Origin: an uncultured delta proteobacterium
Lineage (GTDB): Bacteria; Myxococcota_A; Polyangia; Polyangiales; Polyangiaceae
NCBI GenBank assembly: GCA_903870415.1
Contig: CAIQDA010000117.1
Coordinates: 1-55,420, forward strand
Direction: 5' to 3'
DNA: 55,420 nucleotides
The position numbers and the translations under genes are program-made. Below, piece by piece: positions 46,236 through 55,420 of the stretch. The notes beneath the pieces were generated by a model. It searched no databases, was not told the DNA's origin, and was given only the letters and a program-made list of their open reading frames with translations. How positions within the stretch are numbered: position 1 is the first letter of the stretch; each line of letters begins with the position of its first letter.

Positions 46236-48005
46236 TTAGGAGCCGTTCGTGGGTCGATCGTCTCGGCGAATGCCGCCCCATCCGGCGCTGAGCTCGTGAA
46301 TGAGCTTGGCCTCAAGCTGCATCGCAGGCTCGGGCGCCCCGAGAAAGTGGCCCTGCGCCTCCGTGCAACCGATCGCACGAAGCTGCTCGATTTGCTCGGA
46401 ACTCTCGACGCCCTCGGCGACGACTCGAAGCTCCAGCGCTCGCGCGAGCGCCACGATACCGCGGGTGACATGTTCGCCGTCGCGGCCCTGCGCGAGGTCG
46501 CTGACGAACGTGTGATCGATCTTCACCGCGTCGATGGCGAAGCGTCGCAAGTACTTGAGCGACGATGACCCCGTGCCGAAGTCGTCGATCACGACCGTCG
46601 CCCCAACGGCGTCGAGTTCCTCGATGCGCGCAAGACTCGCGTGGACGTCGTGCATCGCCACACGCTCGGTGATCTCCAGCTCGAGCGCGCCCGTGGGAAG
46701 CCCCGAGGAGCGGAGCGCTTGATCGACCGTTCGAGGGAGGTCGGGATCGAGGAAGTGACGCGCGGACACGTTCACCGCCATGCGGAATCGCCGCCCCGTG
46801 AGTTCACGCCACGCACGCAACTGACGGCACGCGGTGTGGAAGACCCAACGCTCCACGTCGACCATGCCGCCGCTCGCTTCGAGTGCTCGAACGAACTGTG
46901 CAGCATGCACGAGTCCATGACCCGGTCGCGACCAGCGAAGGAAGGCTTCGACGCCCGCAAGTTCGTTCGTTCGCAGGTCAAACTGTGGCTGGTAATGGAG
47001 CACGAACTGCTCTTGCGCGAGCGCATCGCGGAGCGCGTCGAGGAGCGAACGTTCCGCCGAAGTTCGGTCCACCGTGCGATTGGACGCAAGCACAGCCTGG
47101 CCGGGACTCGTGCGTTTTGCCAAGCGAAGAGCTTCGTCGGCCACCTCGCACAGGCGGTCGACTTGCTCGCCGTCCACCGGGTAGAGGGCGACGCCTGCGG
47201 TAACGGCCGGCCGCACCTCGTGCTCACCGTATCGCCATACGCGCGAGACCGAGGCGAGAAGAGCGGCCACCACCGTCGAGGCTTCGCTTGGTTCGGTGAT
47301 GCCGTCGAGGCGCACGAAAAACTGATCGTCTCCGCGACGCGCAACGTGAGGATCATTTTCGCAAGCGTCGACGATGCGCGTGCCCACCTCACGGAGAAGC
47401 TCGTCTCCCGCGTGCCGCCCCAGGCGATGGTTCAAGTCTCGAAAGCCGTCGATGTCGAAAACCGCGAGGGCGAATCCGCGACGACCATGCCCCGAATGCT
47501 GAATCGCGTGCGCCGTCTGACGCCGGAACGCGTGAACGTTCGGCAAGCCCGTGAGCGGGTCCTCGAGGCGAAGTCGCTCGATCTCGTTTTCGGCGTCGCG
47601 ACGCAAGAGCGCGTAACGAATTGCACGGAGAATCCCTCGCGAAACACATTCGTCAACGCCAAGAACCGCGTGCGCACCGAAGCGAAGGAGGGCGTCGCCT
47701 TGCGCGTCGTCATCGGCGCTCACGACACCGATCACCGCCTCGGTCGGAAACTCCCGCTGCACCTCAAGGAGCCTCGCCAAAGGGTCGCCGCCATAAGACG
47801 CGTCGACGATCACAAGGTCGATGCCCTGCACCTCGTCGCCCGCGCGAATCGGCCCGAGCGCCAAGGTGGATTCGGAACCGAGAACCTGCCGAAGCACGGC
47901 ATGCCATGACGGAACCGCCTCGCCGCAAACAAGCCTTGCGCGTAGCGACGGAGCCTCGCCCGAGGACCTGTACGCCTCATTCGTGGTCGCGGGCTCGCTG
48001 TTCAT
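46236..48005 (-). CDS. pseudo-receiver / degenerate GGDEF / EAL protein
   Basis: LRLEDPLTGLPNVHAFRR, RRGDDQFFV (in place of GGDEF), VEAFLRW (EAF), ELEITERV, VVIDDFGTGSSSLKYLRRFAIDAVKID, VVAEGVE. Confidence 0.9.
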   Translation of the reverse strand: MNSEPATTNEAYRSSGEAPSLRARLVCGEAVPSWHAVLRQVLGSESTLALGPIRAGDEVQGIDLVIVDASYGGDPLARLLEVQREFPTEAVIGVVSADDDAQGDALLRFGAHAVLGVDECVSRGILRAIRYALLRRDAENEIERLRLEDPLTGLPNVHAFRRQTAHAIQHSGHGRRGFALAVFDIDGFRDLNHRLGRHAGDELLREVGTRIVDACENDPHVARRGDDQFFVRLDGITEPSEASTVVAALLASVSRVWRYGEHEVRPAVTAGVALYPVDGEQVDRLCEVADEALRLAKRTSPGQAVLASNRTVDRTSAERSLLDALRDALAQEQFVLHYQPQFDLRTNELAGVEAFLRWSRPGHGLVHAAQFVRALEASGGMVDVERWVFHTACRQLRAWRELTGRRFRMAVNVSARHFLDPDLPRTVDQALRSSGLPTGALELEITERVAMHDVHASLARIEELDAVGATVVIDDFGTGSSSLKYLRRFAIDAVKIDHTFVSDLAQGRDGEHVTRGIVALARALELRVVAEGVESSEQIEQLRAIGCTEAQGHFLGAPEPAMQLEAKLIHELSAGWGGIRRDDRPTNGS

Positions 48006-48292
48006 CGCCTCAAGTATCGGCGTTCTTTGCGGCCAGCGCAACGTGCGCGCAACCAAGTTGGCAGCGCCCCGGGCGAAGACCCGCAGAGGCCCCTACTCGC
48101 CTCGCTTCCGCCGCACTGCGCCCCTTCGATGACGCAGGCGGCCGCGAGCGCCATGCGATCGCCTGACCACCTGAACGAGCGATTCCGGGGGCCAGCCATC
48201 GCGTGAACCGTTGACGATGCACGCCCGCGCCTTCATGCATTCTGCACACTTCGAGCGAACGCGTGTCGCGTGTCGCCGACGCGAATTCCAAA

Positions 48293-48985: not shown

Positions 48986-49882
48986 ATGAACGGAAACAAC
49001 CAAGCTCTCCTCATCGGCAATCCCGACAGCGTCGTTCACGCGGTCGACCGTCGCTTCCAGGCGCTCGGCTTGCCGTGCGTCGCCATCTCCGACGCCAGCG
49101 AGGCTGTCGATGTGATCCGCGAGGGCCGCGTCGTGACGTTCGTCGCGATCGATGAAGCCATCGGCGAAACGGCTGCAGCGGAGGTGCTCTCGGCCTCGAA
49201 GACGCTTTACCCCGAGGCCCCGGTGCTTTGGGTCGGCGCCGACCGCGGTCCCGAGCGTTTTCTCTATCCGCCTGACGCGGTCGTTTCACCGACAAGCAAG
49301 CCGAACGAAGTCGAGCGCGCAGGCGAGCGTTTGCTTCGCGCGGTGTTTTATCCAGACAACCTCGTCGCAGCTTTCGAGACGTCGCTCCAGACCGTGCTCA
49401 GCGGCAGCTTCGACGTGCACGCGAAGCTCGACGACGTGTACTTGCGATCGAACCGCAACGTCCTCGCGTTCGTGAACACGCTGCTGCCCTTCGCAGGCAA
49501 AAAAGTCAGCGGGCGCCTCGCGGTGTCCTCGTCGCTCCTCTACTTGAAGTCCGTCCACAAGCGCATCTTCGGTGCGGACGTGCCGGCGACCATCGACGAC
49601 GCGGAAGATATCGCCGCGGAAATGTGCAACCAAACGCTTGGAACGCTGAAGGTGTTTCTCGCGCGGCGCGGCATCACGATCGAGTCGGGCTTGCCCATGA
49701 TGATCCGCGGCCAGCAGGCGGAGATTCGTTACAAGGCGACGCACCCGGCCCTCGTCTTTCGCCTCGAAGAGCCGCAGGGAACGCTCTTCTTCGAAGCGTA
49801 CTTCGACATCTTCAACGTCGCCGAACTGAGCCGACCGATCGACGGCGACTTCATCAAACCGGGCCTCGTGACGACACTCTGA
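48986..49882 (+). CDS. CheX-like protein with N-terminal receiver-like region
   Basis: VSGRLAVSSSLLYLKSV...DDAEDIAAEMCNQTLGTLKVFLARRGITIESGLPMMIRGQ. Confidence 0.72.
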   Translation: MNGNNQALLIGNPDSVVHAVDRRFQALGLPCVAISDASEAVDVIREGRVVTFVAIDEAIGETAAAEVLSASKTLYPEAPVLWVGADRGPERFLYPPDAVVSPTSKPNEVERAGERLLRAVFYPDNLVAAFETSLQTVLSGSFDVHAKLDDVYLRSNRNVLAFVNTLLPFAGKKVSGRLAVSSSLLYLKSVHKRIFGADVPATIDDAEDIAAEMCNQTLGTLKVFLARRGITIESGLPMMIRGQQAEIRYKATHPALVFRLEEPQGTLFFEAYFDIFNVAELSRPIDGDFIKPGLVTTL

Positions 49883-51321: not shown

Positions 51322-52371
51322 CTACTCGGCGGGTGCGTCCGCGAGGGGATCCCAGTTCAGGTCGTTGGTGGCCGGCGCCGGGTATTGGTACTTTCCCGTC
51401 GTCTTCGAATACGCGCCCCAGATCGTCGTTTCGATGGGCGCGTTTGCGCGCTCGAAATGACCGTTCGCCTTGAGGAAGGCATGGACCTTCGGCAGGTTGA
51501 AGAACGGCACCGACGGGTACATGTGGTGCTCAAGATGGTAGTTGATGTTGTGGTAAAGGAACGTGAACCACGGGTGAATGCGTGAGCGCGTGTCCCGGAG
51601 AATGCCCTCTTCGAGGCCCGCATGCTCCACGTACGGCCGCAGGCCCGAGTAGTGCACGACCACAAGGTGCGGGAGCACGACGCAAATGATGCCCGTCGCC
51701 AGGTCCTTCATCGTGATCCAGATGTAGAGGCTCGCGTAGGCGCCCGTGACGAGCAGGTTCAAGACCGCAAGAGCCGTCGTGGCCCGCTTCGAGAATGGAA
51801 GCTTCACCTTCAAGGGAAGGTCGAGGCCCATCGAGAGACGAGCGCCGTAGATGGCGTACTTCATGTCGGCGTCGAGGCGGGCGAACATCACGCGCGAAAG
51901 AAACGTCTTGTACTTTGCAAAGACTTTCGCGTCGGGGTCCGAGGCCTGGTTCGTGTAGCGATGGTGGTTCCAGTGCGACGCCGCGAAGCCGGTCACGCTG
52001 AAGCCGATGATCACCGACGAAGAGATGAGGCCCGTGATGGCGCTCAGGTACTTGTTCTTATGGAGCGAGAGGTGAAAACCCTCGTGCCCGACGAGGCCGA
52101 GGATCTGCATTCCCTGGCCTGAGAGAAACACGAACGGCGCCATGAGAGCCACGCGCAAGGCCACGTGCAGCGACGCGAACGACCAAATGGTTCGCGAGAT
52201 GGCACCGAAACCGAGAACGAACGCGAGCCCGTAGGCGATGAAGCCGAGGGTGCGGAGGAAGTTCGGTTCGTAGAACTCGCGCGGCAGAATGGGCGGGCGA
52301 GCGTAACGGGCAGAGGGGACAGTTTCAGCTTGGATGCCACTGTCGGGCTTGGTCCATTGGTTCGGACGCAT
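51322..52371 (-). CDS. fatty acid desaturase
   Basis: GHEGFHLSLHKNK, HWNHHRYTN, NINYHLEHHMYP histidine boxes. Confidence 0.93.
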   Translation of the reverse strand: MRPNQWTKPDSGIQAETVPSARYARPPILPREFYEPNFLRTLGFIAYGLAFVLGFGAISRTIWSFASLHVALRVALMAPFVFLSGQGMQILGLVGHEGFHLSLHKNKYLSAITGLISSSVIIGFSVTGFAASHWNHHRYTNQASDPDAKVFAKYKTFLSRVMFARLDADMKYAIYGARLSMGLDLPLKVKLPFSKRATTALAVLNLLVTGAYASLYIWITMKDLATGIICVVLPHLVVVHYSGLRPYVEHAGLEEGILRDTRSRIHPWFTFLYHNINYHLEHHMYPSVPFFNLPKVHAFLKANGHFERANAPIETTIWGAYSKTTGKYQYPAPATNDLNWDPLADAPAE

Positions 52372-52451: not shown

Positions 52452-52889
52452 TCACGTCCTGACGCGCCGCGAAAGCTTACATGCACCCATATGTAGGATG
52501 TGTGCAAATTCTTCGCTCGTCACCGGGACCACGGAAAGGCGCGATCGCTTCAGCATCGCCATCTCCGCGAGCGTCGAATCGGCCTTGATGGCCGCGAGCG
52601 TGACGGGCTTTGGCAGCGCAACGACAGGCTCCACGTCCACCACGCTCCAGTCTTCGTCGGTCGTCGGGTCTTGGTACGCGGTGCGGGAAACGCGGGCGAC
52701 GCCGACCACCTCTTTGCCCTCATTCGAGTGGTAAAAAAGCACGAGATCGCCCTTGGCCATTGCCCGGAGGTTGTTGCGCGCTTCGAAGTTGCGCACGCCG
52801 TCCCACGAGGTGCGCCCGTCGGCGACGAGCTGGGTCCATGGGTACTTGGAGGGCTCGCTTTTCGCGAGCCAAGTGCGGGCGGCCGTCAT
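52452..52889 (-). CDS. EVE domain protein
   Basis: WLAKSEPSKYPWTQLVADGRTSWDGVRNFEARNNLRAMAKGDLVLFYHSNEGKEVVGVARV. Confidence 0.93.
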   Translation of the reverse strand: MTAARTWLAKSEPSKYPWTQLVADGRTSWDGVRNFEARNNLRAMAKGDLVLFYHSNEGKEVVGVARVSRTAYQDPTTDEDWSVVDVEPVVALPKPVTLAAIKADSTLAEMAMLKRSRLSVVPVTSEEFAHILHMGACKLSRRVRT

Positions 52890-52999
52890 CGTCGTAGGAT
52901 GCCAGAGACCCCTTCGCGGCTTGCGATGGAATCGTCGCTGAAGTTTTTTCGTCCGCCCCTTTTGAGCCCGCCGTGACCCTAGGCTCTGCCGCGGTCCCG

Positions 53000-55420
53000 A
53001 TGAGTCCCCTCCAATCGCTGCCGTCCCATCTGTCGGAACGGGTGCGTCAAACCGACGCCGCGGGACGCCCGTGGGTTTCGGGTCCCGTCGTGTGCTGGCT
53101 GCACCACGCGATGCGCCTTGACGAGAACCCCGCGCTCGATGCGGCGCGCATGCTCGCGGTCTCGGCGGAGCGTCCGCTCGTGGTCGTTCAGATCGTCTTC
53201 GAGCGCGAACCGTATGCAAACGATCGGCATCACACGTTCATCCTCGAGGGCGCGCGCGACTTTGCTCGCGCGGCGGATGCGGCAGGAATCGACTTCCGTT
53301 TGCATGTCGAACGCCCGGGGCATCGCACGGCCGTCCTCGACGACCTCGGGGCCATGGCCGGAGCCATTGTCACCGACGACATGCCCATCGCGTGGTGGAA
53401 CGATCGCTACGCGCACCTTGAGCGTGCGGCGACCTGCGCGGTGCTCGTGGTCGATAGCGCGTGCGTCGTGAGCCACAACCTCGTCGGCCGCGCGCACGAC
53501 CGAGCGTATGCGTTTCGTCGCGCGACAGAAACGTGGCGTCGCGAGCGTATCGTTCGCCCGTGGCCCGACGCGCCGCAAGCCCTCGCCCGTCGTGACGCGC
53601 CCGTGCCTTTCGCCTCGGTGAACCTCGGACAAGCACGGTTGCACGAACTCGTGGCTTCGTGCGCCATCGACCACAGCGTCGCGCCGGTCGGCCATACGCG
53701 TGGAGGCGCCATCGTAGCTACGGCACGATGGGCTGCGTTTCGAAACGATCAGCTTGTGCACTATGCACGTTCCCGAAACGACGTTCTCACACCGTCAACG
53801 TCGCAGCTCTCCGCGTACCTCAACCACGGGCACATCAGCCCACTGCGCGTGGCGCGCGAAGCCGCTCTCATCGGTGGACCGGGCGTCGACAAGTACCTCG
53901 ACGAGCTCGTCATTTGGCGCGAGCTTGCGTACGCATTTGCCCGCTTTTTTCCAGAGCACAGTACGCCGGCGGCAATCCCCGACTGGGCCAAGCGCACGCT
54001 CGCCGACCACGCGCACGAACGCCCGGCATCCCTCAACCGCGAGGCTCTCACCGCCGCGCAAAGCGGCGACGCGTTTTGGGACGCAGCTCAGGTGTGTCTC
54101 GTCCGCCACGGAGGCCTGCACAACAACGCACGCATGACCTGGGGCAAGCAGATCATCCGCTGGTCTCCGGCACCCGAACCGGCCTTCGACTTCATGATGG
54201 AGCTGAACGACCGGTACTCCCTCGATGGTCGAAGCCCTGTCGGGTACTCGGGCGTCCTTTGGTGCTTCGGCCAGTTTGATCACCCGGTGCCCGAAGCGAC
54301 GACGGCGTTCGGACGCGTGCGCGCGCGCTTCACGACGGAACAGGCAAACGTCGTCGAAGCGGCTCGTTTTGCTGCGAGTGTCGCTCCGCCTGCGATCTCG
54401 AAGAAGCATCGCTTTGCCGTCGTCGGTGCGGGGCTCGCCGGAATCACCGTCGCCAGGAATCTCGTCGCGCACGGGCATCTCGCCACCATTTTTGAGAAGA
54501 GCGCCGGCGTTGGCGGACGAGCGGCGACCCGTCGCGCTGGCGAGCGCACCTGGGACCACGGGCCTCCCGCGTTCGAAGTGAGAAACGAAGCACTCCGCGC
54601 GCGCGTTGACGAATGGGTGCGCCTCGGTGTCGTCGAACCATGGCGCCCGAACGTGGGTCGCGCAGGCGAAGGCGGTCTCAAAACCATCGCCGCTCCGATC
54701 GCGGATCAAATGGTCGCGGTTGGCGGAATGGACGGCCTCGCGCGCCACCTCGCGAGCGGCCTCGACGTGCATCTGTCCACAACGATTGAACGCGTTTCGT
54801 TCGACGGGCAAGCCTCCGCGCTTCTCGTCGCCGAGGCCCCGCGACTAGGGCCCTTCGACGGCGTCGTCATCGCGACCCCGCCCGCCCAAGCGACTGCGCT
54901 CATCGCAGCGGCGTCGCCACTTGCATCCTGCATTGATTCGACGACGATGGTTCCGCGCTGGGTTGCGCTCGCGGCGTTCCGCGGCTCGACAGGAATTCAC
55001 GACGTGATTTTCGTCGAGGACGGCGTCGTGGAATTTGCATCGCGACGCGAGAGCCCCGATGGCTCCTCGTGGACCATTCGTGCGACCGATGCGTGGTCGA
55101 GGGAAAACCTTGAGATCGCGCCTAGCGCCGCCGCAGAGACGCTCGCGGCAAGCTTCCTTCGCGCCACAGGATTCAAGGCGCCACTGAACGTCGTCGGGCA
55201 TCGCTGGCGTTACGCTTTTTCCGATCACGATGACCGAGGCGGGAGCTTCCTCGACGAGCATGCGAACCTCGTGGTGACCGGGGACTGGTGCTCGGGATTC
55301 GGGGTCGAGGCCGCGCTCGAAAGCGGCCACGCGGCCTCGGGTCGACTCCTTGGATGGCTCCATGAGCATGACCTTGAGGACCGGCGTGAGACTCCTCCTC
55401 GTGCAAGCGCGGCGGAGATC
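53000..55420 (+). CDS. class II photolyase-like domain fused to a renalase-like FAD/NAD(P) oxidoreductase (C-terminus beyond window)
   Basis: Own translation, frame = 53000 mod 3, no stop to 55420. Photolyase-like: GPVVCWLHHAMRLDENPAL, YLDELVIWRELAYAFARFFPEH, DAFWDAAQVCLVRHGGLHNNARMTWGKQIIRW, ELNDRYSLDGRSPVGYSGVLWCFG. Oxidoreductase: FAVVGAGLAGITVARNLVAHGHLATIFEKSAGVGGRAATRR ... LVVTGDWCSGFGVEAALESGHAAS. GTG at 52973 is an alternative start. Confidence 0.88.
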   Translation, partial: MSPLQSLPSHLSERVRQTDAAGRPWVSGPVVCWLHHAMRLDENPALDAARMLAVSAERPLVVVQIVFEREPYANDRHHTFILEGARDFARAADAAGIDFRLHVERPGHRTAVLDDLGAMAGAIVTDDMPIAWWNDRYAHLERAATCAVLVVDSACVVSHNLVGRAHDRAYAFRRATETWRRERIVRPWPDAPQALARRDAPVPFASVNLGQARLHELVASCAIDHSVAPVGHTRGGAIVATARWAAFRNDQLVHYARSRNDVLTPSTSQLSAYLNHGHISPLRVAREAALIGGPGVDKYLDELVIWRELAYAFARFFPEHSTPAAIPDWAKRTLADHAHERPASLNREALTAAQSGDAFWDAAQVCLVRHGGLHNNARMTWGKQIIRWSPAPEPAFDFMMELNDRYSLDGRSPVGYSGVLWCFGQFDHPVPEATTAFGRVRARFTTEQANVVEAARFAASVAPPAISKKHRFAVVGAGLAGITVARNLVAHGHLATIFEKSAGVGGRAATRRAGERTWDHGPPAFEVRNEALRARVDEWVRLGVVEPWRPNVGRAGEGGLKTIAAPIADQMVAVGGMDGLARHLASGLDVHLSTTIERVSFDGQASALLVAEAPRLGPFDGVVIATPPAQATALIAAASPLASCIDSTTMVPRWVALAAFRGSTGIHDVIFVEDGVVEFASRRESPDGSSWTIRATDAWSRENLEIAPSAAAETLAASFLRATGFKAPLNVVGHRWRYAFSDHDDRGGSFLDEHANLVVTGDWCSGFGVEAALESGHAASGRLLGWLHEHDLEDRRETPPRASAAEI

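Follow-up and report, generated by a model that had tools for sequence, protein, structure and literature searches.

The window analyzed here is a stretch of 55,420 nucleotides and corresponds to the entire contig CAIQDA010000117.1 (C117) of the draft genome (4.69 Mb in 511 contigs) of an uncultured delta proteobacterium of the Polyangiaceae. At its right end, a stop-free open frame extends from a GTG codon at position 52973 to position 55420 (816 amino acids), with ATG 53000 as the likely start codon. This frame encodes a class II cyclobutane pyrimidine dimer (CPD) photolyase and a complete renalase-family FAD domain in one protein. The initial annotation had described an uninterrupted frame running past the window edge; the frame is open to position 55420, which is the edge of the contig, and the 3' end of the gene is missing. 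The features of the locus are as follows.

53000..55420, + strand: photolyase-renalase fusion gene (ATG 53000 likely, GTG 52973 possible as start; open frame, fusion conserved in 80 loci)
53000..54385, + strand: class II CPD photolyase domain, residues 1-462 (TIGR00591, 3umv/2xry, Foldseek match to MmCPDII)
54077..54163, + strand: codons of the Trp triad, W360 (54077-54079), W381 (54140-54142), and W388 (54161-54163), from the MmCPDII alignment
54206..54208, + strand: codon of N403, aligned with the asparagine presumed to face FAD N5 (invariant in 84 fusions)
54278..54322, + strand: bubble-intruding loop, residues 427-441 (D428 and R441 equivalents kept; R429 replaced by H, W431 by V)
54386..54409, + strand: short linker, about residues 463-470, between helix 454-461 and strand 471-475 of the model
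54410..55390, + strand: renalase-family FAD domain, residues 471-797 (4zcc, Pfam Amino_oxidase and NAD_binding_8, Foldseek)
54425..54442, + strand: GAGLAG dinucleotide-binding motif (sequence)
55034..55081, + strand: residues 679-694, where W212 and SKPxR of renalases are lost in the window genus (sequence comparison)

A relative was found in a sister genome (G001; 70% identity to the window fusion), in which the gene is also broken by a contig end, its halves lying on two contigs, one of which ends at the residues (MNNL) with which the other begins. The position of the stop codon in G001 implies that the window gene lacks only roughly 10 to 30 codons. Upstream of the fusion, the window carries genes for an EVE-domain protein (52452-52889, - strand; divergent to the fusion), a fatty acid desaturase (51322-52371, - strand), a CheX-like protein (48986-49882, + strand), and a GGDEF-EAL protein (46236-48056, - strand). 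Elsewhere, the window genome encodes a second class II photolyase (G000:C296:7704-8987, - strand) and a DPRP (i.e., prokaryotic 6-4 photolyase-like) protein (G000:C269:977-1594, + strand).

The class II photolyase-like domain proposed in the initial annotation was identified by TIGR00591 (residues 35-451; 248 bits; E = 2e-73) and by PDB entries 3umv (E = 6e-44) and 2xry, a solved class II enzyme, and Foldseek placed MmCPDII among the best matches of the window model. The TIGR00591 score is below the curated cut-off (550 bits), which bars the automatic name of that model; it reflects a divergent clade in which the active-site features are present. Mapping on MmCPDII located N403, which we take to be the asparagine facing FAD N5 in class II photolyases and which was invariant in 84 fusions. 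The Trp triad of class II photolyases (W381-W360-W388; PMC5885780) is also complete in the window and was retained in 82 to 84 of the 84 fusions. The window has all seven of the residues that contact the CPD in the Methanosarcina mazei enzyme (R164, R256, N257, E301, W305, M379, and W421; PMC6126647), and these contacts, like the triad and N403, were nearly invariant among the 84 fusions.

The fusions share the fold, Trp triad, N403, and CPD contacts of the known class II CPD photolyases (MmCPDII, 2xry; rice enzyme, 3umv), but they differ in bearing a C-terminal renalase domain, in forming their own clade, and in several residues. Residues typical of the whole clade are N376, T380, E372 (replaced by G in the window), and, in most fusions, H404 (D in the window genus); 81 of 84 fusions carry F at the position of W431. 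In the bubble-intruding loop, the window retains D428 and R441, while R429 is replaced by H and W431 by V in the window genus; the former is among the replacements listed for this loop and the latter is not (PMC6126647). The altered class II signatures reported in the initial annotation were quoted with the correct letters, but most of these differences are clade-wide and not catalytic: MTWGK is common to the whole fusion clade, and SPVGY and the HPV loop are restricted to the window genus. A loss of photolyase chemistry through these alterations was rejected in view of the residue mapping on MmCPDII. Because the Trp triad, N403, and every CPD-contacting residue are kept, the photolyase half is most likely a working photolyase, and a reading of the altered signatures as marks of a dark-active enzyme or a redox/light sensor finds no backing in these residues.

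Regarding the second half, the proposal of a renalase-like Rossmann-type FAD domain was borne out. The bacterial renalase 4zcc matched residues 481-797 over its full length (E = 3e-43), Pfam Amino_oxidase and NAD_binding_8 matched the same domain, and renalase was ranked first by Foldseek; the GAGLAG motif, previously placed at about 54420, lies at 54425-54442. The full-length fold and the FAD-site residues (G9, G11, K33, G39, R40, D52, G54, G301, D302, and E310) are shared with the Pseudomonas renalases (4zcc/4zcd/3kkj), from which the window domain differs in being fused behind a photolyase and in the absence of Q56, P107, W212, and SKPxR. These residues are lost in both the window and G001 and are present in most other fused and standalone renalases. 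Given their absence, we classify the window domain as renalase-like, and its chemistry is uncertain. The substrate may have changed in the window genus, and this is the least certain point of our reading because the substrate region is altered. By these comparisons, the window genus departs from its clade in two places, the bubble-intruding loop of the photolyase half and the presumed substrate region of the renalase half. Between the window and G001, dN/dS was 0.22 in the photolyase part, and two pieces of the renalase part gave 0.28 and 0.32; both halves are therefore under purifying selection in the window genus. Pseudogenization or decay in this genus was ruled out by the same ratios (0.22 to 0.32).

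To find relatives, a profile of six fusions was compared with contigs from 85,000 genomes, which resulted in 328 relatives, and the best 80 were kept. Both halves were encoded in one open frame in all of the best 80 of 328 relatives (80/80), so the in-frame fusion reported initially is real. The fusion relatives showed 35 to 70% identity. The best 80 loci were mostly from Planctomycetota and also from Myxococcota, Gemmatimonadota, Alpha- and Gammaproteobacteria, and Desulfobacteria, and the strain-named records with the fusion included Stieleria sedimenti ICT_E10.1, Rhodopirellula sp. SM50, and R. sallentina SM41. In evenly drawn samples, the fusion was present in about 22 of 284 Myxococcota genomes and in 7 of 249 Planctomycetota genomes. 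One member, L010 (in G029), is a fast-evolving fusion with W360 replaced by F, R441 replaced by S, and gaps in the renalase half, and it may no longer be functional.

In the photolyase tree, the fusions formed a fully supported clade apart from the remaining class II sequences. Two sequences without a renalase half (L106 and L107, the contig of the latter ending soon after) were placed inside this clade, a state consistent with later loss of the renalase half; the tree of the photolyase half fits one fusion gain and two losses. Fused and standalone forms were intermingled in the renalase tree (about 10 changes, of which at least 2 were forced; support was weak in places), and the Pseudomonas renalase 4zcc and a fused form shared one supported group. 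A single shared history of the two halves was rejected on the basis of this intermixing, which makes repeated fission or domain exchange likely. In genome G064, the halves occur as separate, distant genes, with the photolyase at L106:3660-5060 and the renalase on another contig (G064:C147:8892-9854). This pair is possibly a natural fission, and its separation argues that the halves are able to act apart.

The AlphaFold2 models of the window protein and of a Rhodopirellula relative had the same values (mean pLDDT, 93; pTM, 0.93). In the model, about nine residues lie between the final helix of the photolyase (454-461) and the opening strand of the renalase (471-475). The pTM of 0.93 in two proteins implies a predicted defined mutual arrangement of the two domains.

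We also analyzed the gene neighbors of the fusions and of standalone renalases. The fusion neighbors included DPRP-type photolyase-related genes (17 loci), short-chain dehydrogenase/reductase (SDR) genes (17 loci), Fpg/Nei glycosylase genes (8 loci), and DUF2256/DUF3253 genes (8 loci); some of these neighbors were close and on the same strand. Of 44 standalone renalases sampled from Myxococcota, Gammaproteobacteria, and Planctomycetota, 7 had a photolyase-superfamily gene of another class within 0.75 kb on the same strand, and 37 had no photolyase neighbor among the queries used. Under a rough null of 0.2% per locus, such adjacency has a P value of about 1e-11, with loci that are not fully independent. 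The neighbors were class I photolyases (L113 and L114), PF03441-only (i.e., FAD-binding domain) photolyase-like genes in Gammaproteobacteria (L159:4670-5554, + strand; L162:4771-5988, - strand), DPRP genes (L160 and L179), and an apparently broken class I-like gene (L155). In the two Myxococcota loci with a class I CPD photolyase (L113:4385-7559 and L114:4207-7562), a MerR-type regulator directly upstream of the renalase, the renalase, and the photolyase are consecutive and overlap or nearly touch, and the row ends with a YbgA-like (DUF523/DUF1722-type) gene. The L114 regulator has a weak, subthreshold similarity to B12-binding domains. This gene row is an unfused counterpart of the photolyase-renalase fusion. 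A related arrangement has been described in Pseudomonas mendocina, in which a photolyase, an SDR, and an FAD oxidoreductase are encoded in one region and phrB and ufaM are light inducible (PMC9758184). This class II LitR light-responsive region resembles the fusion loci in bringing these three functions together, but there the genes are separate and the photolyase is of another class (PMC9758184); the oxidoreductase may or may not be a renalase.

Renalase clears faulty forms of NADH, and the bacterial enzyme of Pseudomonas (4zcc/4zcd/3kkj) is a 2-/6-dihydro-NAD(P) oxidase; to our knowledge, its cellular role is unsettled. We propose, with moderate confidence in the reading as a whole, that the fusion is a bifunctional photodamage-repair flavoenzyme. 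The FAD of the photolyase half would be photoreduced via the Trp triad, and this half would flip out a CPD and split it with blue light. The renalase half would oxidize a dihydronicotinamide compound; homology points to the off-pathway 2- or 6-dihydro-NAD(P) isomers as its substrate and to O2 as the acceptor. The two active sites would be neighbors in a fixed assembly, each working on its own, so that both DNA and nicotinamide cofactors would be repaired under light stress. The whole renalase fold and its FAD-site residues, the retained catalytic and CPD-contacting residues, the purifying selection, the fixed arrangement in both models, and the repair-type neighbors favor this proposal, as do the 7 of 44 standalone renalases beside other photolyase-family genes, two of them behind a MerR-type regulator, and the separate genes of G064. 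The fusion, its spread, the conservation of the active sites, and the neighbor association are observed, and both activities, the renalase substrate, and the physiological reason are inferred. A counterpoint is that nearly all members of the clade have kept the fusion: a co-regulated operon would serve two independent activities equally well, and retention thus suggests something more physical. The loss of Q56, P107, W212, and SKPxR in the window genus and the 37 of 44 standalone renalases lacking a photolyase neighbor among the queries used also weigh against it.

A rival explanation is flavin-to-flavin coupling, in which the renalase-like domain would pass electrons from (dihydro)nicotinamide to the photolyase FAD and so hold it as active FADH- in the dark. 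The very short linker and the domain arrangement confidently fixed in the models speak for this possibility, as do the retention of the fusion almost throughout the clade, the repeated occurrence of renalase together with photolyases of several classes, and the clade-specific surroundings of the electron path (T380 and H404, with E387 not kept). However, the Trp triad is conserved in 82 to 84 of 84 fusions, which argues that ordinary photoreduction of the photolyase flavin is still used, and unfused clade members exist (L106 and L107). We regard coupling as less likely than independent activities, but as a serious rival. Speculatively, and with similar reserve, renalase could be a dedicated photolyase partner that draws on reduced or mis-reduced nicotinamide to charge the flavin of the photolyase without light, the fusion being chemically primed and the unfused neighbor pairs being two-component versions.

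An account of about the same probability as coupling is that the second domain is an FAD oxidoreductase for a substrate other than dihydro-NAD(P) and was taken on to cope with light or oxidative stress, while the photolyase half still repairs CPDs. Members of the flavoprotein superfamily of renalase act on many substrates, and in the window genus renalase-specific positions are altered while FAD binding and purifying selection remain. Nevertheless, the best full-length match is a renalase and not another amine-oxidase-like enzyme, and typical fusions retain the positions shared with renalases.

A photolyase-derived light or redox sensor without repair activity is far less probable than the bifunctional repair enzyme. 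The aromatic residue of the bubble loop is gone in the window genus (W431 to V), and the second class II photolyase and the DPRP protein of the window genome could handle repair; however, every CPD-contacting residue is retained, a signaling domain is absent, and the relatives have DNA-repair neighbors. An indel or misassembly joining two genes, for which the only argument is that the genome is a draft (511 contigs), was ruled out for practical purposes by the single-frame fusions in the best 80 of 328 relatives and in about 22 of the 284 sampled Myxococcota genomes.

Both halves belong to known families, and their combination appears to be new. The initial annotation had left room for an architecture already common and characterized; it proved common, and a characterization was not found in the literature searched. 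No paper with both "photolyase" and "renalase" was found in that literature, which covers few subscription journals, such that an earlier description is possible, and other searches of the same coverage for such a fusion returned nothing relevant.

The fusion defines a widespread, apparently undescribed family of two-flavin proteins that is found in planctomycete strains. Together with the separate association of neighboring genes, it links bacterial renalase to light and DNA photorepair and hints at the purpose of this enzyme. Whether renalase is a photodamage enzyme, and whether a photolyase can be reduced by a fused nicotinamide-oxidizing domain, are now testable questions; electron transfer between the two flavins, if true, would be a more surprising outcome than two independent activities.
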